Source of the DNA: Paracoccaceae bacterium
GTDB lineage: Bacteria; Pseudomonadota; Alphaproteobacteria; Rhodobacterales; Rhodobacteraceae
Length of the DNA stretch: 64,000 nt
Direction of reading: 5' to 3'
Assembly: GCA_012270125.1 (NCBI GenBank)
Contig: JAAXIY010000064.1
Span: 1 to 64,000, forward strand
The position numbers were made by a program, and so were the translations under genes. This document shows, in pieces, positions 2,895-21,182 of the stretch (within the stretch, counting starts at the first letter, position 1; each line of letters opens with the position of its first letter). The notes beneath the pieces are model-generated. The model was not told the origin of the DNA and searched no databases. It saw only the letters and a list, made by a program, of their open reading frames with translations.

Positions 2895-3148
2895 TTGAAA
2901 GTTATCCCCATAGTTGAGCTGTTTCGGTAAATCGAAGATATATTTCCATCAAGTACCGAAACGGATTTTTGGAATAAAATGTGAAATTTTTGTATAAATT
3001 ATGAGCAAAATAACTTTTGCATCCCATTTTTTGTGCAAAATTTGGCATTTTAGGGGGAAATTTAATCATGATGAATTGTTCACTTTTCCTTTTTTAATCT
3101 AGTAACCGCTGAATGCTGGTGGACGGATAATTGAAAGGATAAATTTCT
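2895..3148. promoter_or_regulatory. Divergent promoter region with three inverted-repeat arms
   Basis: This 254-bp AT-rich region separates the divergent ATPase and binding-protein genes and must hold both promoters. Seen directly: a 9-bp inverted repeat GTTTCGGTA (2921-2929) / TACCGAAAC (2954-2962); a palindrome GCAAAATAACTTTTGC (3005-3020); and a third arm TGCAAAA (3034-3040) that also pairs with TTTTGCA at 3015-3021. These are good operator candidates. No regulator gene is adjacent. Confidence 0.45.
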
Positions 3149-4414: not shown

Positions 4415-4433
4415 TTTAAAACTTTAAAGAAGG

Positions 4434-4465
4434 GGCTGGTGTCTAGTGCTTAGCATCAGCCTTTT
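4434..4465 (+). terminator. Intra-operon stem-loop after the binding-protein gene
   Basis: GGCTGGTG (4434-4441) pairs with CATCAGCC (4454-4461), an 8-bp stem with one G-T pair, followed by TTTT. It lies between the binding protein and the first permease. It probably acts as a partial terminator or mRNA stabiliser, as is common for importers that need excess binding protein. Confidence 0.6.
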
Positions 4466-4492
4466 CACTTCTAAAAACTGTGGACTAAAATT

Positions 4493-5383
4493 TTGGTTGA
4501 ATATCTACAAGAGAAATTTAAGCCCAAACTTTATTGGCTGGCGTTCCCGTTTGCGCTAGTTTTTTTTATTTTTTTCATTATTCCTCTGTTTCTCACCTTT
4601 ATTGTCAGCTTTTGGGATTACAACGATTATTCAATTATCCCAGATTTAATTTTTGATAATTATATTTACATTTTTGAAGGATGCTTTCGTTTCAATGCAG
4701 AGCTATGCATGACCTTCAAAACATATCTCTCAACACTTTATTTTTGTTTTATTACCTGGTTGGTCACTTTAGTTCTTGGGTTTTTTATCGCATATTTTTT
4801 GGCTTTTTATGTCACTTCAACGCAAATTCAGATTGCACTATTTTTAATTTGCACGATCCCATTTTGGACATCAAACGTTATAAGAATGGTGTCTTGGATT
4901 CCTTTGCTTGGTAGGCACGGTTTAGTCAACGATGCCTTAATCCAAATTGGTTTAATCAAAGAGCCGGTCGAGTGGTTTTTATACTCAGAATTTTCGGTCA
5001 TACTCGCGCTGGTCCACCTCTATACATTGTTTATGATCGTCCCGATTTTTAATTCAATGATGCGTATTGATAAGAGCATTATAGAAGGAGCCTATGATTC
5101 TGGCGCAAACGAAATACAAATCTTATCAAATATTATAATACCTTTGTGTAAACCTGGTATCGTAATAGGCTCTATTTTCGTAATAACGGTTGTTATGGGA
5201 GACTTTATTACTATCGGGATTATGGGAGGGCAACAGCTTGCTTCAATTGGTAAAGTCATAAATACTGAAATGAATTACCTTCAATTGCCGGGCGCAGCTG
5301 CGAATTCTGTCATACTTCTTTTAGTAACAATTATTTTAATTATCATTATGACTAGGTTCATAGATATACGAAAGGAGTTGTAG
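4493..5383 (+). CDS. ABC transporter permease, PotB-like
   Basis: 296 residues with about six hydrophobic membrane segments, the first at residues 16-40. The EAA loop that docks on the ATPase is visible as EGAYDSGANEIQILSNIIIP (around 198-217). It belongs to the binding-protein-dependent inner-membrane permease family. The likely start is TTG at 4493, since no ATG suits the N-terminus; the ribosome-binding site is weak, so the start is uncertain. The stop is one base before the next permease's ATG, so the two are translationally linked. The two proteins would form the heterodimeric channel with the PotA-like ATPase. Confidence 0.85.
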   Translation: MVEYLQEKFKPKLYWLAFPFALVFFIFFIIPLFLTFIVSFWDYNDYSIIPDLIFDNYIYIFEGCFRFNAELCMTFKTYLSTLYFCFITWLVTLVLGFFIAYFLAFYVTSTQIQIALFLICTIPFWTSNVIRMVSWIPLLGRHGLVNDALIQIGLIKEPVEWFLYSEFSVILALVHLYTLFMIVPIFNSMMRIDKSIIEGAYDSGANEIQILSNIIIPLCKPGIVIGSIFVITVVMGDFITIGIMGGQQLASIGKVINTEMNYLQLPGAAANSVILLLVTIILIIIMTRFIDIRKEL

Positions 5384-5384
5384 G

Positions 5385-6266
5385 ATGCACCGAACTGGGT
5401 CACGTGGATTTTATTTCTTTTTAATAATTTTTACTCTTTTTGTTATTTTTTTGTATGGTCCGATGTTTTCTATAATTTTGCTTAGTTTTCAAGGACCAGA
5501 GGGTGGCCTCACTTTCCCAATGAATGGAGTATCCTTTCATTGGTTTGGGGAATTATGGAGAGGCGCCGGCGTTGTCGATATAGGTTCGGCATTCAGACGC
5601 TCTTTGGTTTTGGGCTTCGTTGTTATGATTTTAACCGTAACTTTATCTGTGGCTGCCGGTCTGGCATTTAGGAAAAAGTTTAAAGGATCAGAGCTTTTAT
5701 TTTTGACAACAATTGCCAGTCTAATTGTGCCATCTATTGTATTGTCTTTGGGTGTTGCACTTGAATTTAGGTTGTTAGATGAGACAGTAAAATGGTTTGG
5801 TGAAGCTTTTGGAATAGAGAAAATTAATTATGAGTTTCAGACGACCCTGGGCATGTTCACTAGTGGAATGGGTACTCAACTTACTTGGACGCTTCCATTT
5901 GGGCTTTTAATAATGTTTGCGGTTTTTAATCGCTTTGATAAATCATATGAAGAAGCTGCTCAAGATTTGGGAGCAAGCCAATGGCAAACATTAAAAGAAG
6001 TAGTGCTTCCAATAATTGCACCAAGCATTGTTGGTATTGGTCTTTTTGGATTTACTTTATCTTATGACGAGCTTGCCAGGTCCTCTCAGGTAATGGGTGC
6101 GACTAACACACTTCCTTTAGAGCTACGCGGATTAACCACCACGGTTACTACCCCGATAATATATGCCTTAGGAACCCTCACTACTCTTTTTTCATTTTTG
6201 GTGATTGGTATCTTTTTCCTAAGTGCATGGTTGCTTTCAAGTGCAAGGTCAAAATCAGAAAGTTAG
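5385..6266 (+). CDS. ABC transporter permease, PotC-like
   Basis: 293 residues, about six transmembrane segments, with the EAA loop as EEAAQDLGASQWQTLKEVVLP (around 188-208). This is the second half of the importer channel. An AAAGGAG ribosome-binding site lies within the end of the preceding gene. The racemase gene follows after a 26-base gap, so transporter and enzymes very probably share one transcript. Codon and base use match the AT-rich neighbours. Confidence 0.87.
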   Translation: MHRTGSRGFYFFLIIFTLFVIFLYGPMFSIILLSFQGPEGGLTFPMNGVSFHWFGELWRGAGVVDIGSAFRRSLVLGFVVMILTVTLSVAAGLAFRKKFKGSELLFLTTIASLIVPSIVLSLGVALEFRLLDETVKWFGEAFGIEKINYEFQTTLGMFTSGMGTQLTWTLPFGLLIMFAVFNRFDKSYEEAAQDLGASQWQTLKEVVLPIIAPSIVGIGLFGFTLSYDELARSSQVMGATNTLPLELRGLTTTVTTPIIYALGTLTTLFSFLVIGIFFLSAWLLSSARSKSES

Positions 6267-6292
6267 CGCATGAACAGTATAAACGGCAAGCA

Positions 6293-6928
6293 ATGAAGGT
6301 AATTCTAATAAATCCTAATAGCACGGAAGCTATGACATTAAGTTCAGTTGAAACAGCTCAAAAGACTGCTCCTGAAATAAATTTTGAGGGATGGACTTCA
6401 TTTGATGGCCCGCCTTCTATTCAGGGAGAAGAAGATGGGAACTATGCTACTCAACCTTTGCTGGAATTGGTAAAAAAAGCAAATAAGCAGAAACCTTCTG
6501 CAATAATTATTGGTTGTTTTGACGATACAGGTCTTGAGCAAGCGCGAGAAATTTCTTTGTGTCCAGTCTTGGGTATTGGTGAGTCAAGTTTTCTGCTTTC
6601 TTATTTGTTTTCAGGTAAGACTGCGGTCATTACAACTGTTCATGAGGCTGTTCCAATTATAAAGAAAAATATTAAAAATGCTGGCTACAGCACTCTCATA
6701 AGTGAGGTGATAGCGGCAGATGTTGAAGTTTTAGACCTGGAGTTTAGTCCTGCCCAGTCAGCTGTAAAATTTGCACAGGCCTCCAAGGCTTTAGACGGAA
6801 GCACACAAAATATAATTTTGGGATGTGCTGGGGCGGTAAAAATAAAAGATGAGTTTGAAACTATTACTGGTTACAAATCCTTTGATGGTGTAACAAGCGC
6901 AGCCAAGCTTTGTCGCGCCCTGCTGTAG
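6293..6928 (+). CDS. Asp/Glu/hydantoin racemase family protein (probable allantoin/hydantoin racemase)
   Basis: 211 residues from the ATG at 6293, whose N-terminus MKVILINPNSTEAM is the typical opening of hydantoin and allantoin racemases; the same frame extends 22 codons upstream but overlaps the permease gene and looks non-native. The two catalytic cysteines of this two-base racemase fold are present: C75 in GCFDDTGL and C178 in LGCAGA. The GCFDD-type motif is characteristic of hydantoin/allantoin racemases rather than glutamate racemase. With the ureidoglycine aminohydrolase next door the likely job is interconversion of allantoin enantiomers so that both can be degraded. A maleate isomerase-like activity is less likely. 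Confidence 0.82.
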   Translation: MKVILINPNSTEAMTLSSVETAQKTAPEINFEGWTSFDGPPSIQGEEDGNYATQPLLELVKKANKQKPSAIIIGCFDDTGLEQAREISLCPVLGIGESSFLLSYLFSGKTAVITTVHEAVPIIKKNIKNAGYSTLISEVIAADVEVLDLEFSPAQSAVKFAQASKALDGSTQNIILGCAGAVKIKDEFETITGYKSFDGVTSAAKLCRALL

Positions 6929-6975
6929 AGTTTTCAGTTATTAAACACGTAAATGATTAATTGGAAAAAAATCAT

Positions 6976-7797
6976 ATGAAAAAAAATAATTATTTTTCTC
7001 CAGTGGGTGGGCTCCCACAGCAGTCAAAATTACTTACTGATAGAGCAGTATTTAAAAGTTCTTATGCTGTAATTCCCCGTGGTTGTTTTACGGATATAGT
7101 TACTAGTACGCTTCCTCTTTGGAAAAATATGAGGATGTGGATTGTTGCACGGCCAATGACAGGTTTTGCTGAAACATTTAGTCAGTATGTGGTACAGCTA
7201 GAACCAAACGGAGGAAGCGAAAATCCAGAATCTAATTCGGATGTTCAGTCAGTACTTTTTTTGACGTCTGGTTCAGCTGAATTAAAAGTTAATAGTGAAA
7301 GACATATTTTAAAAAGTGGTAGTTACGTCTATATACCTGCTGGTTCTGAATGGAGTATCTGGAGTAATTCAAATGAAATAACCAATTTTCATTGGATACG
7401 CAAAGTATATAAAGATGTAAAAGGTGTAGAACGTCCGATAGCATTCGTAAAAAATGAAACTGAATGCGAAGATGTCGAAATGCCTAATTCTAATAGTACT
7501 TGGTTCACTAAGCGTTTTGTTGATGCCAATGATGTTCGTCATGACATGCATGTTAATATTGTGACTTTTCAGCCAGGCGGTGTAATTCCTTTTGCAGAAA
7601 CACATGTGATGGAGCATGGGATATTTATTCTTGAAGGAAAAGCTGTATATCACCTTAATCAAGATTGGGTTGAGGTGGAGGCGGGAGATTTTTTATGGCT
7701 TCGAGCTTTTTGCCCTCAGGCCTGTTATGCTGGAGGACCAGGGCCATTCAGATATTTGCTCTACAAGGATGTAAATAGGCATGTGCCTTTTTTATAA
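6976..7797 (+). CDS. allE: (S)-ureidoglycine aminohydrolase (bicupin)
   Basis: 273 residues, the size of E. coli AllE and plant UGlyAH, with two cupin domains (about 60-145 and 190-265). The C-terminal cupin carries the metal site: E208, H210, H214 and Q248, in ETHVMEH and PQAC. The ending LLYKDVNRHVPF is very close to the AllE C-terminus. The enzyme releases ammonia from (S)-ureidoglycine to give (S)-ureidoglycolate, late in purine/allantoin breakdown. I chose ATG 6976; TTG 6961 would add five residues. It is the last gene of the transporter-racemase operon. Allantoinase and allantoate amidohydrolase are not in the window, so the pathway must be completed elsewhere. Confidence 0.85.
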   Translation: MKKNNYFSPVGGLPQQSKLLTDRAVFKSSYAVIPRGCFTDIVTSTLPLWKNMRMWIVARPMTGFAETFSQYVVQLEPNGGSENPESNSDVQSVLFLTSGSAELKVNSERHILKSGSYVYIPAGSEWSIWSNSNEITNFHWIRKVYKDVKGVERPIAFVKNETECEDVEMPNSNSTWFTKRFVDANDVRHDMHVNIVTFQPGGVIPFAETHVMEHGIFILEGKAVYHLNQDWVEVEAGDFLWLRAFCPQACYAGGPGPFRYLLYKDVNRHVPFL

Positions 7798-8339: not shown

Positions 8340-9362
8340 ATGACTGATCTAACCAATTTTCAAAAATCATATAAATCGATTGATAAAGCTTTTGCTACTT
8401 TGATTTTGATTTTTGTTTTTCTTTCTATTTGGGATCTGGACGTGTTCACAGACACGTTATCATTCATGCTGAAAGCATTACTGGGTACTGCTCCGTTCAT
8501 TCTCTTTGCAGTGCTCGCGGTTGCTTATTTAAAAGCTACAGGTGCTGAAAATTTATTATCAAATGCCTTCTCAGGGCCGCAGTTTAGAATGATCATTTTT
8601 GCAGCTTTCTTGGGTGGTTTATCACCTTTCTGTTCGTGTGAGGTTATTCCGTTTATAGCGGCACTTCTAGCTATTGGAGCACCATTGAGTGCCGTGATGG
8701 CGTTTTGGCTATCCTCACCTTTGATGGACCCTGCCATGTTTTTAATTACAAGCGGCACGCTTGGTTGGGATTTCGCTATCGGTAAAACTATATTTGCAGT
8801 GGGTATTGGAATATTGGGTGGGGGATTAACCATGTTGTTTTATAAGACCCCAGTTTTTACAGACCCACTTAAAGAAAAGCCACAAATTGGTGGCTGTTGT
8901 GGTATTAAAGAACCTTTCCAAGGCGAGCCAGTTTGGTATTTTTGGCAAAAGGCTGACCGTGTAGAGATATTTAAGCTTACTGGATATGAAAACGCGATCT
9001 TTCTCCTAAAATGGTTAGCTCTTGCCTATACGATAGAGGCGCTCGTGATCAAGTATCTGCCCGCAGATTTGATAGTTACCTTGGTAGGTGGGCAGAGCTT
9101 TTTTACCATTTTTAGTGCGGCTATTTTTGGTGCCCCAGCATATTTAAACGGTTATGCAGCTGTTCCCCTTGTTGATGCGCTTTTAAATCAGGGTATGAGC
9201 AAAGGAGCATCTATGAGTTTTATGATTGCGGGCGGTATCAGCTCTATCCCTGCTGCTATTGCAGTTTGGGCGTTAGTTAAGTCAAAGGTATTTGCTGCCT
9301 ATATTTTGTTAGGCATATTTGGCGCTACGCTTTCTGGAGTAATTTGGCAATTTGTGGCCTAG
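8340..9362 (+). CDS. ArsP/YraQ-family permease
   Basis: 340 residues with about eight to ten hydrophobic segments in two halves. The family's cysteine motif is seen as SPFCSCEVIP (C98, C100). A cytoplasmic loop carries GGCCG near residue 183, a possible metal or metalloid site. The permease family (PF03773, DUF318) includes ArsP, which exports trivalent organoarsenicals, and YraQ proteins of unknown substrate. The CxC and CC pairs favour a soft-metal or metalloid substrate. No ArsR or other ars gene is adjacent, so the substrate is open. It starts 57 bp from the divergent glutaredoxin-like gene, and the two may be functionally linked. Confidence 0.8.
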   Translation: MTDLTNFQKSYKSIDKAFATLILIFVFLSIWDLDVFTDTLSFMLKALLGTAPFILFAVLAVAYLKATGAENLLSNAFSGPQFRMIIFAAFLGGLSPFCSCEVIPFIAALLAIGAPLSAVMAFWLSSPLMDPAMFLITSGTLGWDFAIGKTIFAVGIGILGGGLTMLFYKTPVFTDPLKEKPQIGGCCGIKEPFQGEPVWYFWQKADRVEIFKLTGYENAIFLLKWLALAYTIEALVIKYLPADLIVTLVGGQSFFTIFSAAIFGAPAYLNGYAAVPLVDALLNQGMSKGASMSFMIAGGISSIPAAIAVWALVKSKVFAAYILLGIFGATLSGVIWQFVA

Positions 9363-11046: not shown

Positions 11047-11445
11047 TTATTGTGGGGCAGAAGTTTCGAACTTTGGCAAATCATTGTTAATAGAGATCCA
11101 TCTTAATCTTTCGCCAAAGTAGCAATGTAAACTAGGCTTATAATCTGGTGACCCATCAAGAGATGCTGCATAAAGATGAACCTGTTCTTTCCAACGGGTA
11201 CTTACAAAGCTCATTTGTGTCCCACACGTTCCACAAAACCCTCGGGTTCCATGTTCAGAAGATTTATAATAGTTGAGATTGCCTGTCCAAGTGACGGTGT
11301 CCTCTTTAAAGCTAACCCAAGCAACAACTGGAGCTGAGCAAGCCCTTCGACAGGTCTCGCAATGACAAAGGGCGGTCCATAATGGTGATGCATTGGTCTT
11401 GAATTTTATAGCCCCGCATAGACATCGACCAGAATATTTTTGCAT
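11047..11445 (-). CDS. GFA (glutathione-dependent formaldehyde-activating)/CENP-V family zinc protein
   Basis: 132 residues with the full cysteine set of the GFA fold: CLCGAIKF near residues 8-15, CHCETCRRACSAP near 27-39, and GFCGTCGTQMSF around 70-81. These cysteines bind structural and putative catalytic zinc. Named after glutathione-dependent formaldehyde-activating enzyme, most members have no proven substrate and that original activity is disputed. It is a soluble cytoplasmic protein. It lies 53 bp downstream of the beta-propeller gene end on the same strand and may be cotranscribed. Family assignment is strong; function is open. Confidence 0.85.
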   Translation of the reverse strand: MQKYSGRCLCGAIKFKTNASPLWTALCHCETCRRACSAPVVAWVSFKEDTVTWTGNLNYYKSSEHGTRGFCGTCGTQMSFVSTRWKEQVHLYAASLDGSPDYKPSLHCYFGERLRWISINNDLPKFETSAPQ

Positions 11446-11498
11446 TTGACCCCTCTCTTACTGCCTAGGTTCCCAATAACTGTAATGAATCAAGTAAC

Positions 11499-12440
11499 TC
11501 AAATTTTTAAAAATAGTTTTACAATTCCAATGCTAGTTTCTCCACCACCTGTATAGACCATGTAAACTACATCATTTTGTTCAAATAAAAAAGGATCACG
11601 AAGGGCATGTTCTTGTTTTGCAAGTCCTCCGATAGAGGAAGTTGATATTGGTAAATTTGCGCCCTCCCAATCAAATTTAGGCCTTAATATCACTTGTGCT
11701 TTAGTTGCATGCCATTCTTGCCAAGGGTGTGACATATCAATGGTGGAGTATAATATCTGTTCGGGAGCATCGCCAATACGTGTCCACACTATGTGTAATT
11801 TATCACCCCGAACCAAAACACCAGCATGGCGATGGCCTTGATTGCCAAAAGACCAAGGCCCCATTTCAAATATACCTGATGAATTTTTCTTTAGGATTTG
11901 GCCGCCCCAGCCCAGGGCGTATTTGTTGTGTTTATATTGAAAGAGCCTGAGATAAGTTTGATTGATGCGCTTTGACCGAACCCGCCAAGTTAGTCCATCA
12001 TTTGATACTGCGCATAAACTTCTTTGTTCTCCGTCATGGTCCAAGCCGTGAAAAAACATTTCTAAAGATTTATCTAATTCGTTAATATGCACATCGGGTG
12101 AAGCTATATGCGGATAAAGACCATCCACGCCTTTTTCCATTGCCCATTTAGGTTGTTTTACATTGGGTCTCTCGTGGGTAAATGGGGTTTCTTTCAGGTC
12201 AAGAACTCCCCCTTTATAGATGTTCCAAGGCCCTGTTAGATTATTTGAAAATGCCATTCTAATATTTTGGCCAAAGTGATGTCCAAAATAAAGATAGTAG
12301 CGACCTAAGCAGTTGGGTAACCATTTAGGCGTTTCAAGTAGAGAAGGACCATTTATATTGTTCCCAACTTCTTTAGTACCAGCCTGCAAAATTGGTTGGT
12401 CTAATAATCTTTGAGCTTTGGCAATTCCTTCAATATCCAC
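11499..12440 (-). CDS. Glycosidase-like five-bladed beta-propeller protein
   Basis: 313 residues rich in strands and aromatic residues, with propeller-like repeats such as GRYYLYFGHH, SLEMFFHG, YALGWGG and VVYMVYTGGG. The INGPSL and ALRDPF stretches resemble the sugar-site strands of GH43/GH32/GH117-like proteins found in marine bacteria. No signal peptide is visible, so it would be cytoplasmic. I cannot name the catalytic acid pair, so activity is uncertain. The probable start is GTG 12440, inside the last codons of the GC-rich dehydrogenase gene (11-bp overlap). Base composition drops sharply to AT-rich exactly here, so this gene belongs to the old chromosome and the island was joined at its 5' end. 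Its original promoter may have been lost. Confidence 0.65.
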   Translation of the reverse strand: MDIEGIAKAQRLLDQPILQAGTKEVGNNINGPSLLETPKWLPNCLGRYYLYFGHHFGQNIRMAFSNNLTGPWNIYKGGVLDLKETPFTHERPNVKQPKWAMEKGVDGLYPHIASPDVHINELDKSLEMFFHGLDHDGEQRSLCAVSNDGLTWRVRSKRINQTYLRLFQYKHNKYALGWGGQILKKNSSGIFEMGPWSFGNQGHRHAGVLVRGDKLHIVWTRIGDAPEQILYSTIDMSHPWQEWHATKAQVILRPKFDWEGANLPISTSSIGGLAKQEHALRDPFLFEQNDVVYMVYTGGGETSIGIVKLFLKI

Positions 12441-13398
12441 GTTCTGGGTCTACTATGTTCATGAGTCTCTCGCCTTGTATCCAGCGGTCTAAATTATCTA
12501 GGAAAAGCCGGAACGAGGCTTCTTCCCATTCCGCGTAGACCGACGAGCAATGCGGAGAGACGATGACGTTATCGAGTGCCCAGATCGGGCTGTCCAGTGG
12601 CAGGGGTTCGGTTTCGAAAACATCTAATGCCGCGCCCGCCACATGCCTGGCCTTAAGCGCGTTATATAGGTCAGACTGGTTCACCACACCACCACGGGAG
12701 ACATCGGCGAGAATTACACCGGGCTTCATCCGTGCGATTTCATCCGTGCCGATCAGGCCGCGTGTCACGGGGATGAGCGGCGTAGAGACTGCGATGAAAT
12801 CTGCACGCGGCAGCAGGTTGAGCAGGTCACTGGCCGCATGCACCTCGTCAACATAATCCATCGGTTGAGGTCGGGCCCGTGTTCCCACCACAGTCATATC
12901 AAAAGCCTTAGCTCGTTTCGCCACCGCCCTTCCGGTATGACCAAGACCGACGATCAAGAGCGTCTTTCCGGCAAGCGGGCTGAGAAGCCGAGAGTTCCAG
13001 ACCCGCGCACCCTTGTCCTGTTGCAGTCCAAGGATATCAAGCGTGAAATGTAAAAAGCCGCCGAAGATGTATTCCGCCATCATACCAGCGGCTACGCCTG
13101 CGGCATTGGTCACCGTCGTTTTTGTCTTATCCCATTGCCCGTAATGGTCAGTTCCCGCTCCGCCATTGGCAATCCAGCGTGGGCCATGGGAGCCAAAAAG
13201 TGCGTCGCGTGGAAAGCCCGGAGTGCCTGCAAATCGCACGGAATAGACCACTTCGGGGCGGTAGCTCTCGATTTGTATGGGAAGGGCGTCGTAGCTGTCG
13301 CATTCACGAAAATCCGCATGCGGATAGCGTGCCTGCAACAACTGAGCAAGGTGCACGGTATCACTATTGTGCAAGATAATGCGCGGGGTGTCAGGCAT
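12430..13398 (-). CDS. D-isomer-specific 2-hydroxyacid dehydrogenase
   Basis: 322 residues from ATG 13398, chosen because a GGAGG ribosome-binding site sits 7 bases upstream; a longer frame from 13425 lacks one. The NAD(P) Rossmann motif is GLGHTG (151-156). The catalytic triad of the family is present: R235 in DVSRGGV, E264 in ETEPLP and H283 in SPHCSS. It interconverts a 2-oxo acid and a D-2-hydroxy acid. The overall look is closest to GhrA-type glyoxylate/hydroxypyruvate reductases. Its start overlaps the end of the MmgE/PrpD gene by 8 bp. In this operon it could reduce the 2-oxo acid made by the aminotransferase, or oxidise a hydroxyacid; the direction is inference. Confidence 0.85.
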   Translation of the reverse strand: MPDTPRIILHNSDTVHLAQLLQARYPHADFRECDSYDALPIQIESYRPEVVYSVRFAGTPGFPRDALFGSHGPRWIANGGAGTDHYGQWDKTKTTVTNAAGVAAGMMAEYIFGGFLHFTLDILGLQQDKGARVWNSRLLSPLAGKTLLIVGLGHTGRAVAKRAKAFDMTVVGTRARPQPMDYVDEVHAASDLLNLLPRADFIAVSTPLIPVTRGLIGTDEIARMKPGVILADVSRGGVVNQSDLYNALKARHVAGAALDVFETEPLPLDSPIWALDNVIVSPHCSSVYAEWEEASFRLFLDNLDRWIQGERLMNIVDPERGY

Positions 13399-14737
13399 GT
13401 ATTTCCTCCATTGGCACGCGAACAAGTCGCGCTAGTTCCTCGAATTTTACTTCCGGCTGCATAAGCTGTTCGCGCAATTCCCAAATGGTCCGTCGGCGTG
13501 CCTTGGAGAGTGCCGCGGCCATGATGTGAAACTTTGCTTCGACCTCATGCATATCCATCGGCGCCTCGGGTCCGCCGCGTGCGTTCATTTCTCCCGATGC
13601 CAGCCTCCTGCCGTCTTTCAACTCTACTGTCACATCCGACCAGCGGCCCTCGGGGAAGCGCTCGGAATGCCTAGCGGCTTCGTGCACTGAAATGCGAGGA
13701 AGCAAAGCTGAAACTTGCGGCTCGGTTAGCCCCGTACCAGTGATCTCATTGGGTCCGATCCGGCCGTGCACGAGCATCACGGCAAGAGCGAATGGCAAGG
13801 AATACTGGGCCTGAGACGTGGTCGCGGGCATTCCCGGAAAAAGCGCAGCAGACTCGGCGAAAGTGTTCACAGTGATACTAGTAACGTCGTCTGCGTGAAA
13901 CCTGTGCGCGCGCATCAACTCGGATAAAGCATCAAGCGCTGCATGCGCCCAGCGGCAGATTGGATAAGGCTTGATATAGTTCTGTTCGATCGTCCAGACC
14001 TCACCCAGATCGCCCCAGAACTGCGCCGCATCCTCGTTCTCCACGGTTATGGCAGGGGCGCCGGTGAACCCGTTCATCGCCATGAGCGCGGCCATTGATC
14101 CGATTAGAGCCCCCATGCCTGAACCGTCGTGCAGCATAGTCGGGTTGGCAATCTCGCGCATCATCTGGCTCCGGGGGCCGTGATATTCGGCAATACCAAA
14201 AGCCTGACGAAGCTGATCGGGATTTGCGCTCCTAAGGCGGCACCCGATTGCTGCAACGCCTAAGGCATTCCATGCCCCTGAGGTATGGTAGTCGCTGACA
14301 GAAGCGTGTAGCGCAAAGGCAGCTCGTGCCGCGATCTCGTAGGCCACGACCAGCGCTCTTAGGGCGTCGCGCGCCATTAGTTCTGGCTGATTTTCGGCAA
14401 AGGCGAACAATGCGGGCACCACAGCACAGCCGATATGGCCCTTGGTTTGGTTGAGCCCATCGTGCGCGTCAAGGTTGTCAATTTGAGTGGCCGCGGCAAA
14501 GGCTGCACCCGGGACCGAAGCGCGTCTGCCATCGAACATCATGGAGGCTGCGTGTTCGGGCGCACCGGCGCCGTGAAAGACAAAAGCGTGATCACGCGCA
14601 ATACGACCGGCTGCAAGGCCAGTGGCTCCCGCTGCCACACCTACCGTATCGATTAGAAGCGTCGCGGCCATATCTAGCGCACTTTGCGGAATATCCCGCC
14701 CAGACAGAGTGAATTCGGCAATCCGGTCAAATCTCAT
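13391..14737 (-). CDS. MmgE/PrpD family protein
   Basis: 448 residues, the usual length of the MmgE/PrpD superfamily (2-methylcitrate dehydratase, cis-aconitate decarboxylase, iminodisuccinate epimerase). Characteristic segments are LLIDTVGVAAGA near 27-38, the glycine/histidine-rich DAHDGLNQTKGHIGCAVVPA near 91-110, and YIKPYPICRWAHAALDAL around 254-271, which carries the conserved PxC-H patch of the active site. The fold performs cofactor-free lyase or epimerase chemistry on di- and tricarboxylates. The absence of prpB/prpC nearby argues against methylcitrate. A role as epimerase or dehydratase on a product of the hydantoinase is plausible but unproven. It overlaps its neighbours by 4 and 8 bp. 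Confidence 0.82.
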   Translation of the reverse strand: MRFDRIAEFTLSGRDIPQSALDMAATLLIDTVGVAAGATGLAAGRIARDHAFVFHGAGAPEHAASMMFDGRRASVPGAAFAAATQIDNLDAHDGLNQTKGHIGCAVVPALFAFAENQPELMARDALRALVVAYEIAARAAFALHASVSDYHTSGAWNALGVAAIGCRLRSANPDQLRQAFGIAEYHGPRSQMMREIANPTMLHDGSGMGALIGSMAALMAMNGFTGAPAITVENEDAAQFWGDLGEVWTIEQNYIKPYPICRWAHAALDALSELMRAHRFHADDVTSITVNTFAESAALFPGMPATTSQAQYSLPFALAVMLVHGRIGPNEITGTGLTEPQVSALLPRISVHEAARHSERFPEGRWSDVTVELKDGRRLASGEMNARGGPEAPMDMHEVEAKFHIMAAALSKARRRTIWELREQLMQPEVKFEELARLVRVPMEEIHA

Positions 14738-15477
14738 AGCCGAGCCCTTTCCAGAAGCTGTCCGAACCCTGTCATGGGTTCCCCGATACCGGCCAGTTGC
14801 ATAGCCTGAAACATCATAGCCTGATTTGAGCTGATAACTGGCTTGCCTACTGCCTGCTCAAGCCGCGCAATGGTCTCGATGCTGCGCATGTCTGTGCAGG
14901 ACAGGACAAGCGCCTCAGCTTCAGTATGATCGGCGGCAAGGCCCAGATCATACACGGCCTGCGGGTTCAGTTCGCCCTGTCCGTAATTATCCAGCGCTTC
15001 GCCCACCTCGGAGCGAGCCACTGTTTCGACGCCAACTTCTGCCAGGAAATCGATGGCCATGTTATTGATCGCGGATACATAGGGCGAGGCAAAGCCAATA
15101 CGCTTTACTCCGATGAACTCAAGTGCATGTACCAGTGCGCCCGCTGCGGTGACCGTCTTCGCTTCTATGCCAGCCCTGATCCGCTCGGCGAGCGCTCGGT
15201 CAAAGTCTAATCCGTGGGTAAGCGTCGCCGATGTGCACCCATATAAGATCACATCCGGGCGCACACCCTGAAGCAGGAACAGAGGCTCAGCAAGATCAGC
15301 CGCGCCCAGCCCGTGCATCTGGTTGGCATCGGGTATTTCATCCTGATCATAGCCACCCATGCGGGCGAAATGTAAAGATACACCGTCGGGTCGCAAGAGG
15401 ACCATGTCAGGTTCAAGGTTGGTGTTAGTGAAGGGTACTAGAATGCCGAAACGCCTCCGTCCACGTGATTTTGTCAT
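14734..15477 (-). CDS. Maleate cis-trans isomerase-like (Asp/Glu racemase superfamily)
   Basis: 247 residues. The pseudo-symmetric racemase fold is marked by its two nucleophilic cysteines, C81 in LYGCTSATL and C194 in LSCTDMRS. The N-terminal GILVPFTNTNLEPD and the GCTSAT motif are typical of maleate isomerase and arylmalonate decarboxylase relatives, not hydantoin racemase. Members isomerise, racemise or decarboxylate small dicarboxylates. It overlaps both flanking genes by 4 bp (ATGA). With HyuAB upstream, a hydantoin or N-carbamoyl substrate racemisation is possible, but the motif points to a dicarboxylate such as maleate or an arylmalonate. Confidence 0.78.
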   Translation of the reverse strand: MTKSRGRRRFGILVPFTNTNLEPDMVLLRPDGVSLHFARMGGYDQDEIPDANQMHGLGAADLAEPLFLLQGVRPDVILYGCTSATLTHGLDFDRALAERIRAGIEAKTVTAAGALVHALEFIGVKRIGFASPYVSAINNMAIDFLAEVGVETVARSEVGEALDNYGQGELNPQAVYDLGLAADHTEAEALVLSCTDMRSIETIARLEQAVGKPVISSNQAMMFQAMQLAGIGEPMTGFGQLLERARL

Positions 15478-16556
15478 GCCTTTCCTCCTTTAGCCCTATG
15501 TTCCAAAAGACTTGCTGCAAGATCTAGATCTTCCGCTGTCCCAACTGTAACACGCAGGCAGTCAGGCAGCCCGGCAACGCTTTGTGCACGCGCAACCACG
15601 CCTTCAGCGCGCAGGATCGCGTCCGCCTGTTGAGCCGCCTGGGCATCGTAAAAACGGATCAGTGCGAAATTAGTAAAGCTTTCAGCTATATAAAAGCCTA
15701 CTTTGCGCAAGCGGTTCGAAAAACCGTCACGCAGGCCGGCGGTGATTGCGCAGGTCTCGCGCATATAGGCCTGGTCAGACAGAGCTGTTGCAGCAGCAGT
15801 CTGCCCGGCAACAGAGACGTTGTTTGGGTTCATGACCTTACGAACCTCACTGGCGATGTTCTCAGGGAATAGACCCCAGCCCACCCGTATTCCGGCCAAG
15901 CCATAGGCCTTAGAAAATGTACGCAGGATCACCGTGTCGCCCCGACTGACTAGATCGAATAGGGGCTCACCCAGATGGTCGGCGAACTCACCATAGGCTT
16001 CGTCGATGACAAGCAGGATATCCCCACGCAACCCTTTACGCAGGCGGTCAAGCTCAGCACGTGGGATGCGGGTGCCGGTAGGGTTGCCGGGATTTGCGAC
16101 GAAGACGATGCGGGTATCCGGCTGGACCGCAGCAAGCAGAGTATCGACTGAAGCGGTCACGCCGACCTCGGGCGCGGTATCGTAACGCGCTCGCGCCAAA
16201 CCCGCGGCGGTTCTGAAAAACGGGTAGGCATGGGCGGGTGCAAGAACCGCGCTTTTCTCATCGCAATAAGTTAGCGTTAGGCAGGCAATTAACTCCATCG
16301 AGCCGTTGCCGCAGAGAATGCCCGAGGCTGGGATGCCATGCAGCGCGGCCAGTGCGTTGCGCAACTCAGTCCATTCCGGATCGGGGTAGAGATGCGCGTT
16401 TGTCATGGCGCTTACCAAGACGTCGCTCACCTGTGGGCTTGGTCGGCGCAGGCTTTCATTTTGCGACAGCGATATGACGCGCTTGCCCGCCGGTGCATTC
16501 AGTTCAGCGAGCGCATAAGGCGACATTGCCGCCACATGAGGGGTAGGTCTGATCAT
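15474..16556 (-). CDS. HisC-like class I/II aminotransferase
   Basis: 360 residues, the size of histidinol-phosphate aminotransferase. PLP-binding features: SLSQNES near 29-35, CGNGSMELI at 82-90, ANPGNPTGT at 154-162, IDEAYGEF at 184-191, and the Schiff-base lysine K216 in TFSKAYGLAG. R224 follows in GIRVGW. HisC-like enzymes outside his operons often act on aromatic or other amino acids. No other histidine gene is nearby, so a catabolic role is more likely, making a 2-oxo acid for the operon's hydroxyacid dehydrogenase. It overlaps the HyuB gene and the next gene by 4 bp each. Confidence 0.85.
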   Translation of the reverse strand: MIRPTPHVAAMSPYALAELNAPAGKRVISLSQNESLRRPSPQVSDVLVSAMTNAHLYPDPEWTELRNALAALHGIPASGILCGNGSMELIACLTLTYCDEKSAVLAPAHAYPFFRTAAGLARARYDTAPEVGVTASVDTLLAAVQPDTRIVFVANPGNPTGTRIPRAELDRLRKGLRGDILLVIDEAYGEFADHLGEPLFDLVSRGDTVILRTFSKAYGLAGIRVGWGLFPENIASEVRKVMNPNNVSVAGQTAAATALSDQAYMRETCAITAGLRDGFSNRLRKVGFYIAESFTNFALIRFYDAQAAQQADAILRAEGVVARAQSVAGLPDCLRVTVGTAEDLDLAASLLEHRAKGGKA

Positions 16557-18202
16557 GGCTCAACTCCATAGATTTCGCGGGCTGCCTTTGGGCCGATTAA
16601 CCCTTCCCGAAGGTCGCGTCGGACGTCCTCGCGGCTTCGCTCTTTTGGTAGACCAAAGCCTGCACCGCCCGGGGTTTCAAAGACTAGTGTTTCTCCGGCT
16701 TTTACGCGGACCTCTCCTTTGCCTGGCAGATCGGCCCCGTCATTTCCGATGCGAATACGCCCCGCCGCCCCGTAGCCTCCGCCATACCGGCCGCGCGCTG
16801 GGTTCAAAACCCTTTCGACCGAAAGGAATAGCATGAAGTCCTCATCTTTCGAGGAGCGCATCTCGATATACTGCCCTAACCCACCGCGCTGTCGCCCAGC
16901 GCCGCCGCTGTCGGGTTTGAGCTCGCGCCGCGTAATCAGGACCGGTGCCACCGCTTCGGTGGGTTCCACCTGTGAACCCCAGACACCGGACGGGAACGCC
17001 GTAGCCGAAAGCCCGTCCAGACCGGGCCGCGCACCGGTGCCGCCGGAAAACACCAGTTCCAACGCGAATAGTTCATCCCCCCGCGACACCGCTTCAGGCA
17101 CATGGCGCAGAGGCAGGTCGTACATGCAGGAAGCGCCTTCGGCAGGAACCTTGTTGGGCAGAACTTGCGCAAGACAACCATAGACCAAATCGGGCGTCAT
17201 CTGCCCCAGCGTATGGCGCATGGCCACCGGCGCTGGGGGCTGAGCGTTCAGGATGCAATCTTTTGGACCGGTGACGTGGAAAGGGGCAAGCGAACCCGTA
17301 TTATTTGGAATATCCGGTCCTATGATACAGCGAAGAGCAAATACTGAATAGGCGGTGGCATAGTTCAAGGGCACATTGATGCCTTTGTTCGACAGACCCG
17401 AGGTGCCGTCGAAATCCAGCGTTATATTATCCTCGGCAATCGTCAGGGCAGCATGCAGGTCTATTTCCTGCTCATAGCCGTCGACTGTTAACACATTGTG
17501 CCATGTCCCCTTTGGCAGCTCTGCAATGGCTTCGACAGTGCCGAGATAGGAGGTGTTGATGATATACTCGGCCAAATCGTCTAGATGGGTGATGCCAAAT
17601 TCTTCCATCATACCCGCAAGCCGTTTTGCTCCGGTTTCGCAGCAGGCGATTAACGCATAGATATCGCCTTCATTAGCAATGGGTTCACGTGAGTTGGCCT
17701 TGATGATCTCCATCAGAAGCGTGTTCAGTGCACCCGCGTCCACCAGCTTACAGGGGGGGATTAGCAGACCTTCGTCATAGATATCTGCGCCTTCGGGGCC
17801 CATGCCCAACCCGCCTAGATCAACCAGATGGGAGGTGCAGGAGGTAAAGCCGACCACTTGATCCTTGTGAAATACCGGCATCATTATAAGGAAGTCGTTC
17901 AGATGGCCCGAGGCGATCCACGGATCTTTGGTCATGTAGATGTCGCCCGGTTTCATTTCTTGAAGCTTGAAGTGCCCACATAGAGTTTTCACCGCCTCGG
18001 CCATGGTGTTGATATGTCCAGGCGTGCCGGTCACGGCCTGCGCCAGCATCCGGCCCTGAAGGTCGAAAATACCTGCCGAGATATCCCCACACTCGCGCAC
18101 GATTGGGGAAAAGGCGGCGCGTATCAGCGCTTGACCCTGTTCCTCGACCACGGCCAGAAGCCGATTCCACATGACCTGTAATCGTGTGTCTGTCATTTTC
18201 AT
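16553..18202 (-). CDS. hyuB: Hydantoinase B/oxoprolinase family subunit
   Basis: 549 residues from ATG 18202, which overlaps the hyuA stop as ATGA and is preceded by a purine-rich GGGAGGGGGGAG. ATG 18196 (MTDTRL) is an alternative. The frame runs 63 codons further upstream inside hyuA, but that part is arginine-rich shadow sequence. The N-terminus (RLLAVVEEQGQALIRAAFSP), VRECGDISAGIFD and the C-terminal glycine-rich GRYGGGYGAAG segments are standard for HyuB. With HyuA it forms an ATP-dependent N-methylhydantoinase, 5-oxoprolinase or acetone-carboxylase-type complex. Ring opening of a hydantoin or lactam is the likely first step of this operon. The exact substrate cannot be read. Confidence 0.87.
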   Translation of the reverse strand: MKMTDTRLQVMWNRLLAVVEEQGQALIRAAFSPIVRECGDISAGIFDLQGRMLAQAVTGTPGHINTMAEAVKTLCGHFKLQEMKPGDIYMTKDPWIASGHLNDFLIMMPVFHKDQVVGFTSCTSHLVDLGGLGMGPEGADIYDEGLLIPPCKLVDAGALNTLLMEIIKANSREPIANEGDIYALIACCETGAKRLAGMMEEFGITHLDDLAEYIINTSYLGTVEAIAELPKGTWHNVLTVDGYEQEIDLHAALTIAEDNITLDFDGTSGLSNKGINVPLNYATAYSVFALRCIIGPDIPNNTGSLAPFHVTGPKDCILNAQPPAPVAMRHTLGQMTPDLVYGCLAQVLPNKVPAEGASCMYDLPLRHVPEAVSRGDELFALELVFSGGTGARPGLDGLSATAFPSGVWGSQVEPTEAVAPVLITRRELKPDSGGAGRQRGGLGQYIEMRSSKDEDFMLFLSVERVLNPARGRYGGGYGAAGRIRIGNDGADLPGKGEVRVKAGETLVFETPGGAGFGLPKERSREDVRRDLREGLIGPKAAREIYGVEP

Positions 18203-20298
18203 TCTCCCCCCTCCCAGTTGCGGTTGAGCCAGATATTGCCGCCACCATCCACATTGGCTGAGAAATCGGCGCTGACAAGGGTGGTGGTCTGCGGCTCGAT
18301 GATCAGGGCGGGGCCTGAAAGGTGATCGCCCGGGTGCAGCGAAGCCCGGTCGTGTACCTCTGCCTCGCGCCAAGCGCCGGTGACATCGCACAAAATGGAG
18401 CGGTACCTGTTGGGACTTGCTCGCTGTCTTGTGGAAGGTTCGGGATAGTGCTCAAGGGCGCGTGGTTCAGAGGAAACCTCAAGCGACCAGTTTAGAATTT
18501 CGATAGTCATGCCTGGCACTGCGCGGCTGAATTGGTGGCTGTATTCTCTCTCAAAGGTCCGCCGTAGCGCGGGGATGTCATCCTGCTCCAGCGCACGGTC
18601 TGGTAGCAATATTTCGATTTCGTGACCTTGCCCGTGATAGCGCATGAAAGCCTGCCTCCGCTGAGTTAGCGCGTCCTCGGGTGCACCTGCCCGTACAACT
18701 GAAATAGCCTCATCTCTCATCTCATCAAAAAAGGTGTTGAGCCCGTCGAGCTCAAGGTCCTCGAGCCGGGCATAGCGCGAGCGGATGATTTCGAACGAGA
18801 CCGGCGCGAACAGGAACCCCACCGCCGAACCGACCCCGGGATCGCGTGGGATCAGGATACGGTCGACTTGTGAGCGCCGCGCCACCCGGGTTGCGTGCAG
18901 AGGTCCATTGCCGCCAAAGGCGATCATCAGGCGCGCCCCCAGATCCTTACCAGATTCCACGGCATGCATCCGGCCCGCGTTTGCCATGTTCTCGTCTACG
19001 ATCTCGCTGATCCCACGCCCAGCCTGTGCCGCATCAAGCCCCAAAGTCTGTCCGACACCTTGTTCAAGCGCCACTTGCGCTGCCTCCATGTCAATCGCCA
19101 GCCGCCCCTCGGCAAAGCAGCCGGGCTCTATCAATCCTTGCATAACGTCGGCATCGGTCACGGTGGGCTCTGTGCCTCCCTTTGCAAAAGCTGCGGGTCC
19201 TGGTTCCGAGCCTGCGCTTTCCGGTCCGACCTGCAAACGGCCCAGCCGATCCACATGCGCGATGGAGCCGCCACCGGCACCGATCTCGATCATTTCGATC
19301 ACAGGGATGCGCACCGGCATGCCCGACCCCTTAATGAACCGTGCTGCCCGTGCGATTTCAAACTTGCGTGCGCTTTGCGGTCGAAAATGGTCGATCAGGC
19401 ACAGTTTTGCTGTGGTTCCGCCCATATCGAAACTGAGCACCTCACGCTCGCTGGTTTCGGCGGCGATGCGTGCAGCCAGAATAGCTCCACCGGCAGGGCC
19501 CGATTCTACCAGTCGGATTGGCAAACGTGCGGCGGTTTCCATCGTAGTCATGCCGCCACTAGCGGTCATCATCAAAATTGGGCAGGTCAGCCCCTCATCG
19601 TTGAAGCGGGCTTGAAAACCTGCCAGATAGCTGGCCATTTGTGGTTGGATATAAGCGTTGGCGATGGTGGTCGAAAGCCGGTCGAACTCGCGCGCCTCTG
19701 GGCTGACCTCATGCGATAGCGAAATCACTAGATCGGGCATCCGCGCTTGCAGAAGATCCCGGAGCCTAAGCTCATGCACTGGATTGGCATAGGCATGCAT
19801 CAGGCAGATCGCCACCGCCTCTGCACCGCTGGCCGTTAGTTCCTCAACCAGCCGGGCAAGCGATACCTCTTCAAGCGGTTCCAGTTCCCGCCCACGTGCA
19901 TCCATGCGCCCACCAATAGTAAAGGCGCTTGAGCGCGGTACGATCAGATCTGGTTTGACTAGGTTGATGTCATATTGGCTATAGCGCCGCTCATAGGCAA
20001 TTTCGAGGATGTCGCGAAACCCCTTAGTCGTGACGGTTGCTACAACGGCGCCCCGCCGCTCGATCAGCGCATTGGTGGCCAGCGTCGTTCCGTGGATGAA
20101 GCCGTCGATCTGCGACCATTCCACTCCAGCTTCGGCCAGCACCCGTCTTGCGCCATCAATAGCCCCATGCGCAGGGTTATTTGGGGTTGTAGGTGTCTTG
20201 GTGGTAGCTAGGATATGACTCTGCCGATTGACCAAAACCGTATCAGTGAAAGTTCCGCCGATATCGACAGCAAGGCGAAGTCTTTTTCTGATGCTCAT
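18199..20298 (-). CDS. hyuA: Hydantoinase A/5-oxoprolinase family ATPase subunit
   Basis: 699 residues, normal for HyuA. The ASKHA-type phosphate-binding motif LAVDIGGTFTDTVL lies at residues 8-21. A second nucleotide motif, LSFDMGGTTAKLCLID, is near the middle, followed by VESGPAGG-like and IGAGGGSIAH segments diagnostic of the family. It provides ATP-dependent activation of the amide for cleavage with HyuB. This is the first gene of the GC-rich operon; transcription should start in the AT-rich spacer just upstream (20299-20609). GC-rich codons differ sharply from the nitroreductase gene next door. Confidence 0.9.
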   Translation of the reverse strand: MSIRKRLRLAVDIGGTFTDTVLVNRQSHILATTKTPTTPNNPAHGAIDGARRVLAEAGVEWSQIDGFIHGTTLATNALIERRGAVVATVTTKGFRDILEIAYERRYSQYDINLVKPDLIVPRSSAFTIGGRMDARGRELEPLEEVSLARLVEELTASGAEAVAICLMHAYANPVHELRLRDLLQARMPDLVISLSHEVSPEAREFDRLSTTIANAYIQPQMASYLAGFQARFNDEGLTCPILMMTASGGMTTMETAARLPIRLVESGPAGGAILAARIAAETSEREVLSFDMGGTTAKLCLIDHFRPQSARKFEIARAARFIKGSGMPVRIPVIEMIEIGAGGGSIAHVDRLGRLQVGPESAGSEPGPAAFAKGGTEPTVTDADVMQGLIEPGCFAEGRLAIDMEAAQVALEQGVGQTLGLDAAQAGRGISEIVDENMANAGRMHAVESGKDLGARLMIAFGGNGPLHATRVARRSQVDRILIPRDPGVGSAVGFLFAPVSFEIIRSRYARLEDLELDGLNTFFDEMRDEAISVVRAGAPEDALTQRRQAFMRYHGQGHEIEILLPDRALEQDDIPALRRTFEREYSHQFSRAVPGMTIEILNWSLEVSSEPRALEHYPEPSTRQRASPNRYRSILCDVTGAWREAEVHDRASLHPGDHLSGPALIIEPQTTTLVSADFSANVDGGGNIWLNRNWEGGE

Positions 20299-20609
20299 GG
20301 GAAATCAACCAAAATGAGAAGAGGTGATGCAAATCCGAATACTCGGAACGAATAGTGCCTAAACGGCTAAAAATTCTTTTTAAATTATACGACGAGATCG
20401 CATCCAGTCGCTCGGCGCCCTAAATTTATCCTTAAACCTTGAACTTGCATTCTGCCGCTCTCGTTCTCCATGCTATCAAAAATGTTAAGTGAGCTGTTGG
20501 TCGGTTGTCAATAAAAATACACTGTTTTGAAAATGAGCTGCACACCAGGTACAGCTAACTCTTAATCAGTGGGTCACAGGTTCAAATCCTATAAGGCTTA
20601 TAATTTAAG
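20299..20609. other. Intergenic spacer, island upstream edge
   Basis: These 311 bases separate the hyuA start from the end of the nitroreductase gene. They contain the composition switch from GC-rich to AT-rich, presumably the promoter of the island operon, and tRNA-like sequence near the right end. I see no open reading frame worth calling and no strong terminator. Confidence 0.6.
20536..20600 (+). pseudogene. Degenerate tRNA-Lys(CTT)-like remnant
   Basis: The segment matches the 3' half of a tRNA-Lys: anticodon loop CTCTTAA with anticodon CTT, variable region GGGTC and a T-arm reading ACAGGTTCAAATCCTAT. Each stem is damaged: an A-C mismatch in the anticodon stem, a C-A mismatch in the T stem, no clean D stem, and no acceptor partner for AAGGCTT; CCA is absent. 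It is therefore not a working tRNA. Partial tRNA copies at an island edge are typical of tyrosine-recombinase integration, which fits the adjacent GC-rich block. Confidence 0.65.
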
Positions 20610-21182
20610 TCACTCCCAGGTAACAATTTCTGCCAGATTTGGGCGAGGTCTCTCAGCTGGAGTTACTGTTTCTGTTCCAAAATAAATGATCCCTGCAACA
20701 CGTTCATTTGTATCAAGACCGAAAGTTTCTGATACAAAATTTCTGTCATGAGATAACCAACCAGTGAGCCAGTTTGCACCCCAACCTGCTGCAAGTCCAG
20801 CATTGACAAGGCTAAGGCACACAGCGCCAGCAGAATATGTTTGCTCAATCTCAGGTATCTTTTCAGAAGGCTTTTGTACCTCGATAACAAGAACGCCTAA
20901 TTCGCCATCTTCAAATTGCTTTAAGGCTTTTGCCGTGACCGCCTCTTCGCAGTTAATTGACTCACAGTACTTTTTTGCGGCACTAGCAATTTTTTCTAAT
21001 GTAGGCTTTTCCAGAATTTTAAGCCTCCATGGCTCCAATTTACCATGATCAGGGACGCGAGTTCCTGCTTCTAAGATTTCGATTAGTTGATCTCTTGATG
21101 GAGCCGGTTTGGTTAAGGTTTTGGCAGGTCTAGATCGGCGGGTGCGTAAAAAATCTAAAGCTGCTTCGTTTCTTAAAGTCAT
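20610..21182 (-). CDS. Nitroreductase family protein
   Basis: 190 residues, close to the YdjA-like nitroreductases. FMN-binding features are RTRRSRPAKTL near the N-terminus, AGTRVPDHGKLEPWRLKIL (FMN and NADH contact loop) around 38-56, and GWGANWLTGW near residue 134; the C-terminal YFGTETVTPAERPRPNL closes the FMN site. The enzyme would use NAD(P)H to reduce nitro compounds, quinones or an unknown physiological substrate in the cytoplasm. Composition is AT-rich, so it belongs to the host side of the island border. Confidence 0.88.
   Translation of the reverse strand: MTLRNEAALDFLRTRRSRPAKTLTKPAPSRDQLIEILEAGTRVPDHGKLEPWRLKILEKPTLEKIASAAKKYCESINCEEAVTAKALKQFEDGELGVLVIEVQKPSEKIPEIEQTYSAGAVCLSLVNAGLAAGWGANWLTGWLSHDRNFVSETFGLDTNERVAGIIYFGTETVTPAERPRPNLAEIVTWE

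Follow-up and report, generated by a model that had tools for sequence, protein, structure and literature searches.

What does a compact, GC-rich block of six metabolic genes do in an AT-rich marine bacterium, and how did it come to be there? The question is raised by contig JAAXIY010000064.1 of Paracoccaceae bacterium (assembly GCA_012270125.1), whose positions 1 to 64,000—the whole stretch that was analyzed, here called the window—bear an operon for a two-subunit hydantoinase-like enzyme (HyuA and HyuB, together HyuAB), a HisC-like aminotransferase, a racemase-like protein, an MmgE/PrpD-family protein (PrpD), and a D-2-hydroxyacid dehydrogenase. The operon is most likely catabolic and joins known enzyme families in a combination that none of the papers found assigns. 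We consider it fairly probable that it is a laterally acquired catabolic operon for the predicted ATP-dependent opening of a cyclic amide and the breakdown of the product, with a substrate that would probably derive from an N-methylated amine or betaine.

A foreign operon next to a tRNA-Lys remnant

The six genes (20298–12430) are called as intact open reading frames (ORFs), all on the minus strand, and overlap successively by 4, 4, 4, 4, and 8 bp. Their products match, in this order, the Pfam families Hydantoinase_A, Hydantoinase_B, Aminotran_1_2, Amdase/Asp_Glu_race, MmgE_PrpD, and 2-Hacid_dh_C (Table 1). The block has a GC content of 55–61% versus about 40% (35–45%) elsewhere, and its GC content at third codon positions amounts to 59–62% versus 25–34% in eight neighboring genes. 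An earlier note on this DNA had described tightly overlapping genes with a GC-rich codon use unlike their surroundings and no transporter gene among them, and it was right on each point. The ATG of hyuB at 18202 is internal to a longer ORF beginning at 18391. Neither an Rfam match in window positions 11400–20700 nor an intact tRNA gene in the window was found.

Table 1. Features of the operon and its borders, in window coordinates.
Feature	Position	Strand	Basis
hyuA-like; ATP-binding (ASKHA) subunit, ATP-dependent lactamase/hydantoinase family, 699 aa	20298–18199	-	Pfam Hydantoinase_A, 3.5e-72
hyuB-like; predicted metal-dependent ring-opening subunit, 549 aa	18202–16553	-	Pfam Hydantoinase_B, 4.2e-142
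HisC-like fold-type I pyridoxal phosphate (PLP) aminotransferase, 360 aa	16556–15474	-	Pfam Aminotran_1_2, 1.9e-56
EutA/maleate isomerase/arylmalonate-decarboxylase-like putative cofactor-independent isomerase or racemase, 247 aa	15477–14734	-	Pfam Amdase, 2.1e-21
MmgE/PrpD-family hydratase/epimerase-like enzyme, 448 aa	14737–13391	-	Pfam MmgE_PrpD_N/C, about 1e-31
D-2-hydroxyacid dehydrogenase	likely ATG 13398 (longer TTG start 13425), stop 12430	-	Pfam 2-Hacid_dh_C (PF02826), 3.1e-47
Upstream region that arrived with the operon, about 225 bp	20299–20523	-	Homologous to Rhodobacteraceae bacterium SB2
Remnant of donor dapA (GTG start and first 7–8 codons); breakpoint	12418–12440	-	blastn junction
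Decayed tRNA-Lys 3′ end, attachment-site-like copy, adjoining a nitroreductase gene	20552–20603	+	Copy of tRNA-Lys core

The operon is recently acquired foreign DNA that arrived by lateral transfer, as the earlier note had supposed. In a blastn comparison, window positions 20523–12418 and Rhodobacteraceae bacterium SB2 share an alignment of 8,109 bp with four gaps and 86.8% nucleotide identity. Among 16 genomes of the host genus only the host itself carries the operon—most of the others are incomplete, and absence is not certain for each. One same-genus genome (G003) bears a racemase homolog of 51–52% identity in another setting.

In a further genome of the genus (G002), the gene order is mtaB–dapF–tRNA-Lys–(about 2 kb)–nitroreductase. 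In the host, the tRNA-Lys 3′ remnant has the operon on one side and the nitroreductase gene on the other, and another contig (C77) begins with an intact tRNA-Lys(TTT), after which come dapF and mtaB. A 22-mer of the tRNA-Lys core occurs in two copies in the genome, one in the remnant and one in the intact gene at the C77 edge. Other same-genus genomes hold different DNA between tRNA-Lys and nitroreductase—GC-richer in two cases—and this variable DNA, together with the tRNA copies, therefore marks a tRNA-Lys integration hotspot. At least 20.5 kb of the window contig is hereby placed between the two tRNA-Lys copies; we infer the joining of C77 to the window contig, the far end not being assembled. 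The duplicated tRNA 3′ end at the edge, the variable content in relatives, and the foreign composition are the traits of a tRNA-associated island. No integrase was noticed among the ORFs of window positions 1–20600, but the contig starts at position 1, so that part of the region is not joined to it.

At the opposite border, a gene was lost. SB2 has a seventh gene, dapA, whose GTG start codon overlaps the 3′ end of the dehydrogenase gene. Of this gene, the window retains the GTG and about 7–8 codons, then the homology stops: the donor dapA was cut at the insertion breakpoint and is lost in the host. An ORF of native GC content (11499–12440) now starts in frame at the dapA GTG (VDIEGIAKAQRLL versus VAIEGMAKTERLT in DapA), and alignments with most of its homologs begin no earlier than at residue 8. 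It has no Pfam or NCBIfam match, and its homologs (33–44%) occur in a small number of Roseobacters and on a haloarchaeal plasmid. In four of seven other genomes with a strong homolog, the racemase gene is present as well, on other contigs. As a possible seventh partner this ORF was rejected, as its homologs stand elsewhere in other genomes without operon genes nearby; it is probably unrelated.

The loss of dapA could mean that the recently acquired operon is already decaying and without function in this host, which is AT-rich and has not fully ameliorated the acquired piece. However, six frames are intact, and many relatives retain the core genes without dapA. Compared with SB2, the closest relative, the six genes display a synonymous divergence (dS) of 0.41–0.52 and a ratio of nonsynonymous to synonymous divergence (dN/dS) of 0.085–0.19; therefore, all six have been kept by selection over that divergence of about 0.4–0.5 synonymous substitutions per site, part of which may predate the transfer. 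Hence, we regard a decaying operon as unlikely.

Recurrence of the gene order in relatives

When 84,980 species genomes were scanned with an alignment of the racemase-like protein, 136 loci came up, and 80 of them were kept. These loci, together with plasmid records and the window, make up the 86 loci that were mapped by tblastn; all locus counts are conditional on the racemase, which served as bait. The order HyuA–HyuB–HisC–racemase is found in 76 of the 86 loci. The exact order of all six genes, for which the earlier note had proposed to search, occurs in 27, ten of these with a DapA-family gene directly after the dehydrogenase. Furthermore, the protein distances of the different genes correlate across loci (Spearman rho 0.60–0.87; for every pair, the observed value exceeds those of all 499 permutations), as expected for genes traveling together. 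A chance assembly of the six genes was rejected, because the gene order is conserved: the four-gene core and two or three regular partners form a conserved module. An independent scattering of the genes in relatives, which the earlier note had named as evidence to the contrary, is not what is seen—the order comes back in dozens of genomes, and the intact operon is spread among marine Roseobacters.

Variants of the arrangement occur: the Ruegeria/Leisingera group encodes PrpD and the dehydrogenase on the opposite strand. Racemase matches at E < 1e-60 were obtained for 24 of 249 genomes (about one in ten) when the family was sampled evenly. The operon genes occur on plasmids and on at least one tRNA island; viral contigs were found to encode no relative of the racemase.

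Two of the mapped copies deserve a remark of their own. On a plasmid of Leisingera methylohalidivorans (L007), intact hyuA and hyuB are not annotated, and an overlong aminotransferase ORF of 2193 bp precedes the racemase gene; this copy seems to be disrupted or to carry a frameshift, unless the gene table has gaps. The operon copy on contig DLYX01000320.1 (L008), from a bin labeled Deltaproteobacteria, is about 88% identical in nucleotide sequence and has an interruption of roughly 390 bp in prpD; the contig probably belongs to a mis-binned Roseobacter.

The surroundings of these loci also bear on the direction of the pathway. D-2-hydroxyacid dehydrogenases and PLP enzymes are known from biosynthetic as well as catabolic pathways, and the window copy has no transporter, so that the operon might instead be biosynthetic and supply a secreted metabolite with a D-hydroxy acid or D-amino acid unit. 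Against such a role, no ligase, non-ribosomal peptide synthetase, or exporter is conserved around the operon, whereas some relatives bear dipeptide-type solute-binding proteins, M81/S15/M19 hydrolases, and LysR regulators, which are typical of uptake and breakdown. The location on plasmids and islands is likewise frequent for accessory catabolic genes, and we hold a biosynthetic operon to be very improbable.

Predicted chemistry of the six enzymes

In the predicted pathway, HyuAB would act first. HyuA matches the solved structures of N-methylhydantoinase (1.5e-108) and of the caprolactamase subunit CapA (8.5e-95), with whose phosphate motifs its DIGGTFTD and DMGGT align. The ASKHA ATP motifs are present—D12 and D291, the counterparts of CapA D11 and D295, are kept in at least 97% of 78 loci. 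So is the Asp-His-Asp-His metal site of HyuB, whose D40, H100, D103, and H125 correspond to the CapB metal site D41/H99/D102/H124 and are kept in at least 97% of 79 loci. In caprolactamase, subunit A activates and subunit B performs the ring opening, and mutation of CapA D11 or D295 or of CapB D41, H99, D101, or H124 impaired or abolished activity (PMC8453981). Since the ATP and metal residues that are needed in caprolactamase are kept, HyuAB is likely an ATP-dependent cyclic-amide-opening enzyme.

The likeness to caprolactamase CapAB of Pseudomonas jessenii (PMC8453981, PMC6061476) extends to the two-subunit architecture and, on the pathway level, to an aminotransferase that acts after ring opening. 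However, HyuA and HyuB reach only about 443 and 182 bits with the caprolactamase equivalogs of NCBIfam (NF050156/NF050157), under the cut-offs of 1000 each. The caprolactam route is not known to involve a racemase-like protein, a PrpD, or a D-2-hydroxyacid dehydrogenase. As a side observation, HyuA and HyuB are fused in one ORF of about 1260 aa in an uncultured alphaproteobacterium (L046) and in a Chloroflexi-labeled bin (L076).

Both Hyu subunits also match subunits of acetophenone and acetone carboxylase, and the ATP and metal motifs are common to both kinds of enzyme; the operon could thus encode an ATP-dependent carboxylase of this type and assimilate a ketone. The carboxylase scores are, however, much worse than those for caprolactamase or N-methylhydantoinase (238 versus 443 bits for HyuA, 73 versus 182 for HyuB), only two subunits are present, and the adjoining transaminase suggests an amine product. 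We deem a carboxylase improbable.

The second relative to be weighed is N-methylhydantoinase (PDB 7HK5/9H03), the top solved-structure match for both subunits. The operon might hence be a known route under other names—the degradation of N-methylhydantoin or creatinine, in which HyuAB would yield N-carbamoylsarcosine, then sarcosine, for sarcosine oxidase—and sarcosine-oxidase-like genes do adjoin the operon in some relatives. Yet among the neighboring genes examined no N-carbamoylsarcosine amidohydrolase gene was recognized, and this route has no role for the aminotransferase, the racemase-like protein, PrpD, the dehydrogenase, or the aldolase, all of which are conserved with HyuAB. N-methylhydantoinase itself differs in being one fused chain of 1288 aa in another operon context, and it has no histidine aligned with H125 of the HyuB metal site. 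A renamed N-methylhydantoin route is therefore very unlikely.

For the aminotransferase, the PLP lysine K216 is conserved across loci. Its score with histidinol-phosphate transaminase (TIGR01141) is 246.7 bits, under the cut-off of 276.55, and the host holds a separate HisC homolog of 33% identity on contig C21; on both grounds a biosynthetic HisC role was rejected. The racemase-like protein shares with EutA, maleate isomerase, and arylmalonate decarboxylase the Asp/Glu racemase-fold superfamily, and it bears two cysteines, as found in the isomerases and racemases of this fold (C81 and C194, both kept in at least 97% of 86 loci). The label maleate isomerase, as given in the earlier note, is not supported: both catalytic cysteines are present and the top PDB match is a putative maleate isomerase (3.9e-16), yet every curated equivalog cut-off is missed. 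With arylmalonate decarboxylase (NF052327) the score is 73 bits against a cut-off of 225, and these weak scores led to the rejection of a true maleate isomerase or arylmalonate decarboxylase. An ectoine-utilization EutA was rejected as well, given 110 bits under a cut-off of 318 (TIGR02990) and no ectoine (eut/doe) gene in the operon or among its conserved neighbors.

The best PDB matches of PrpD are the MmgE/PrpD-family members iminodisuccinate (IDS) epimerase (top match, 2.9e-17) and cis-aconitate decarboxylase. The similarity to IDS-epimerase is weak, and the lysine of its TKPMH motif has no lysine counterpart here; with the 2-methylcitrate dehydratase equivalogs (cut-offs 575/950) PrpD scores about 20 bits, which leaves it assigned to the Pfam family alone. 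The dehydrogenase has the Rossmann domain PF02826, a top PDB match to D-2-hydroxyacid dehydrogenase (3.3e-39), and an Arg-Glu-His triad (R244/E273/H292) kept in at least 97% of 44 loci. None of the six operon proteins reaches the cut-off of a characterized equivalog in NCBIfam.

We infer both the individual steps and their order from sequence. HyuAB would phosphorylate a cyclic amide of the lactam or hydantoin type using ATP, and the HyuB metal site would hydrolyze the ring to an amino acid. The HisC-like enzyme might then act on the freed amine by transamination and yield a 2-oxo acid (or aldehyde), while the two-cysteine enzyme and PrpD would isomerize, epimerize, or (de)hydrate the carbon skeleton. 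The dehydrogenase could interconvert a 2-oxo acid and a D-2-hydroxy acid; the DapA-family aldolase of the donor lineage would probably cleave a 2-oxo-acid intermediate. The conserved catalytic residues (HyuAB, C81/C194, K216, R244/E273/H292) support ring opening, transamination, and 2-oxo/2-hydroxy-acid chemistry, which remains the best reading, as the earlier note had predicted. The substrates named there (hydantoin, succinimide, malonate) and the idea that stereochemistry is the task of both isomerase-like enzymes gained no support, and the note had made no mention of the tRNA-Lys site, the lost dapA, or the linked N-demethylation genes. Its statement that no known complete pathway has this gene set also agrees with the open-license literature, in which no published one was found—and no paper that assigns the six genes together, including the topics homarine, N-methylpyrrolidone, and hydantoinase with demethylase or MttB.

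Neighboring genes and the substrate

Which ring would be opened is hinted at by genes for N-demethylation. In Ruegeria sp. SCSIO 43209, the genes for PrpD, SoxB, SoxD, SoxA, SoxG, D-2-hydroxyacid dehydrogenase, and an MttB-like methyltransferase follow each other on one strand, overlapping or standing a few bases apart; SoxA, the alpha subunit, bears a folate-binding GCV_T domain. In one locus (L004), the MttB relative matches the structure of glycine betaine methyltransferase, and in another (L058) MttB lies directly after the racemase gene with a gap of about 15 bp. Three loci (L036, L038, L039) have a DMGDH-like gene about 270 bp upstream of hyuA. PrpD homologs sit with a betaine transporter in Paracoccus and with a DMGDH-sized FAD oxidoreductase in Mesorhizobium. 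Overall, at least one demethylation gene is within reach in 28 of the 86 loci. The host genome of 2.16 Mb holds five MttB-family and five full-length DMGDH-like genes and thus appears strongly equipped for methylated amines.

In several relatives, then, genes for N-demethylation share an operon with, or border on, genes of the present set, which weakly suggests that the substrate derives from an N-methylated amine or betaine of marine algal or animal origin. The resemblance to the methylated-amine genes of Roseobacters (MttB-like, DMGDH, heterotetrameric sarcosine oxidase) ends at the operon of the window, which contains none of them. As far as we know, the known glycine betaine routes need no HyuAB, HisC, or PrpD. 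Tentatively, the operon might encode an aerobic pathway not yet described, which would be widespread but patchily distributed among marine Roseobacters. It would degrade an N-methylated cyclic amide or a ring compound derived from a betaine through ATP-dependent ring opening, transamination, isomerization or hydration of the skeleton, and D-hydroxy-acid chemistry, while enzymes of the MttB/DMGDH/Sox type would provide the N-demethylation.

Several observations weigh against this picture. MttB, DMGDH, and Sox are absent in many loci, and the 28 demethylation-linked loci are dominated by one Ruegeria/Leisingera clade; as Roseobacters carry many MttB/DMGDH/Sox paralogs, the association could be partly background. 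The host lacks the operon's dapA, its best DapA-family match elsewhere in the genome is only 28% identical, and the pathway may therefore be incomplete here. In the same-genus genome G003, one locus (L115) pairs racemase and PrpD homologs (52% and 41%) without HyuAB, and both proteins may therefore serve a step that is not tied to lactam opening. That locus (L115:5000–13500) also has an S15-type hydrolase, a membrane-dipeptidase-like gene, a PhzF-like isomerase, and a betaine-type ABC transporter, and possibly represents a parallel pathway in which another type of enzyme cleaves the amide.

The module is testable, is spread on plasmids and a tRNA island, and has no substrate assignment in the papers found. 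If its substrate were an abundant methylated nitrogen compound of algae or invertebrates, it would supply a missing step in the turnover of marine dissolved organic nitrogen. It would also give a label to many genes that are probably misnamed as hydantoinase, histidinol-phosphate transaminase, or Asp/Glu racemase. For the host, it marks the entry of a foreign pathway into the streamlined 2.2 Mb genome of an AT-rich marine bacterium at a tRNA hotspot.

Since the contig start falls between both tRNA-Lys copies, further genes of window positions 1–20550 (ABC transporter, hydantoin-racemase-like, (S)-ureidoglycine aminohydrolase, permease-like, deacetylase-like) may share the variable region. Of these, the gene at 8340–9362 turned up in just one of 12 same-genus genomes searched. 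Positions 1899–7797 hold a putrescine/spermidine-type ABC transporter, then a hydantoin/allantoin-racemase-like gene (6227–6928) and the (S)-ureidoglycine aminohydrolase gene (6961–7797)—which looks like an allantoin or ureide utilization cluster separate from the HyuAB operon.

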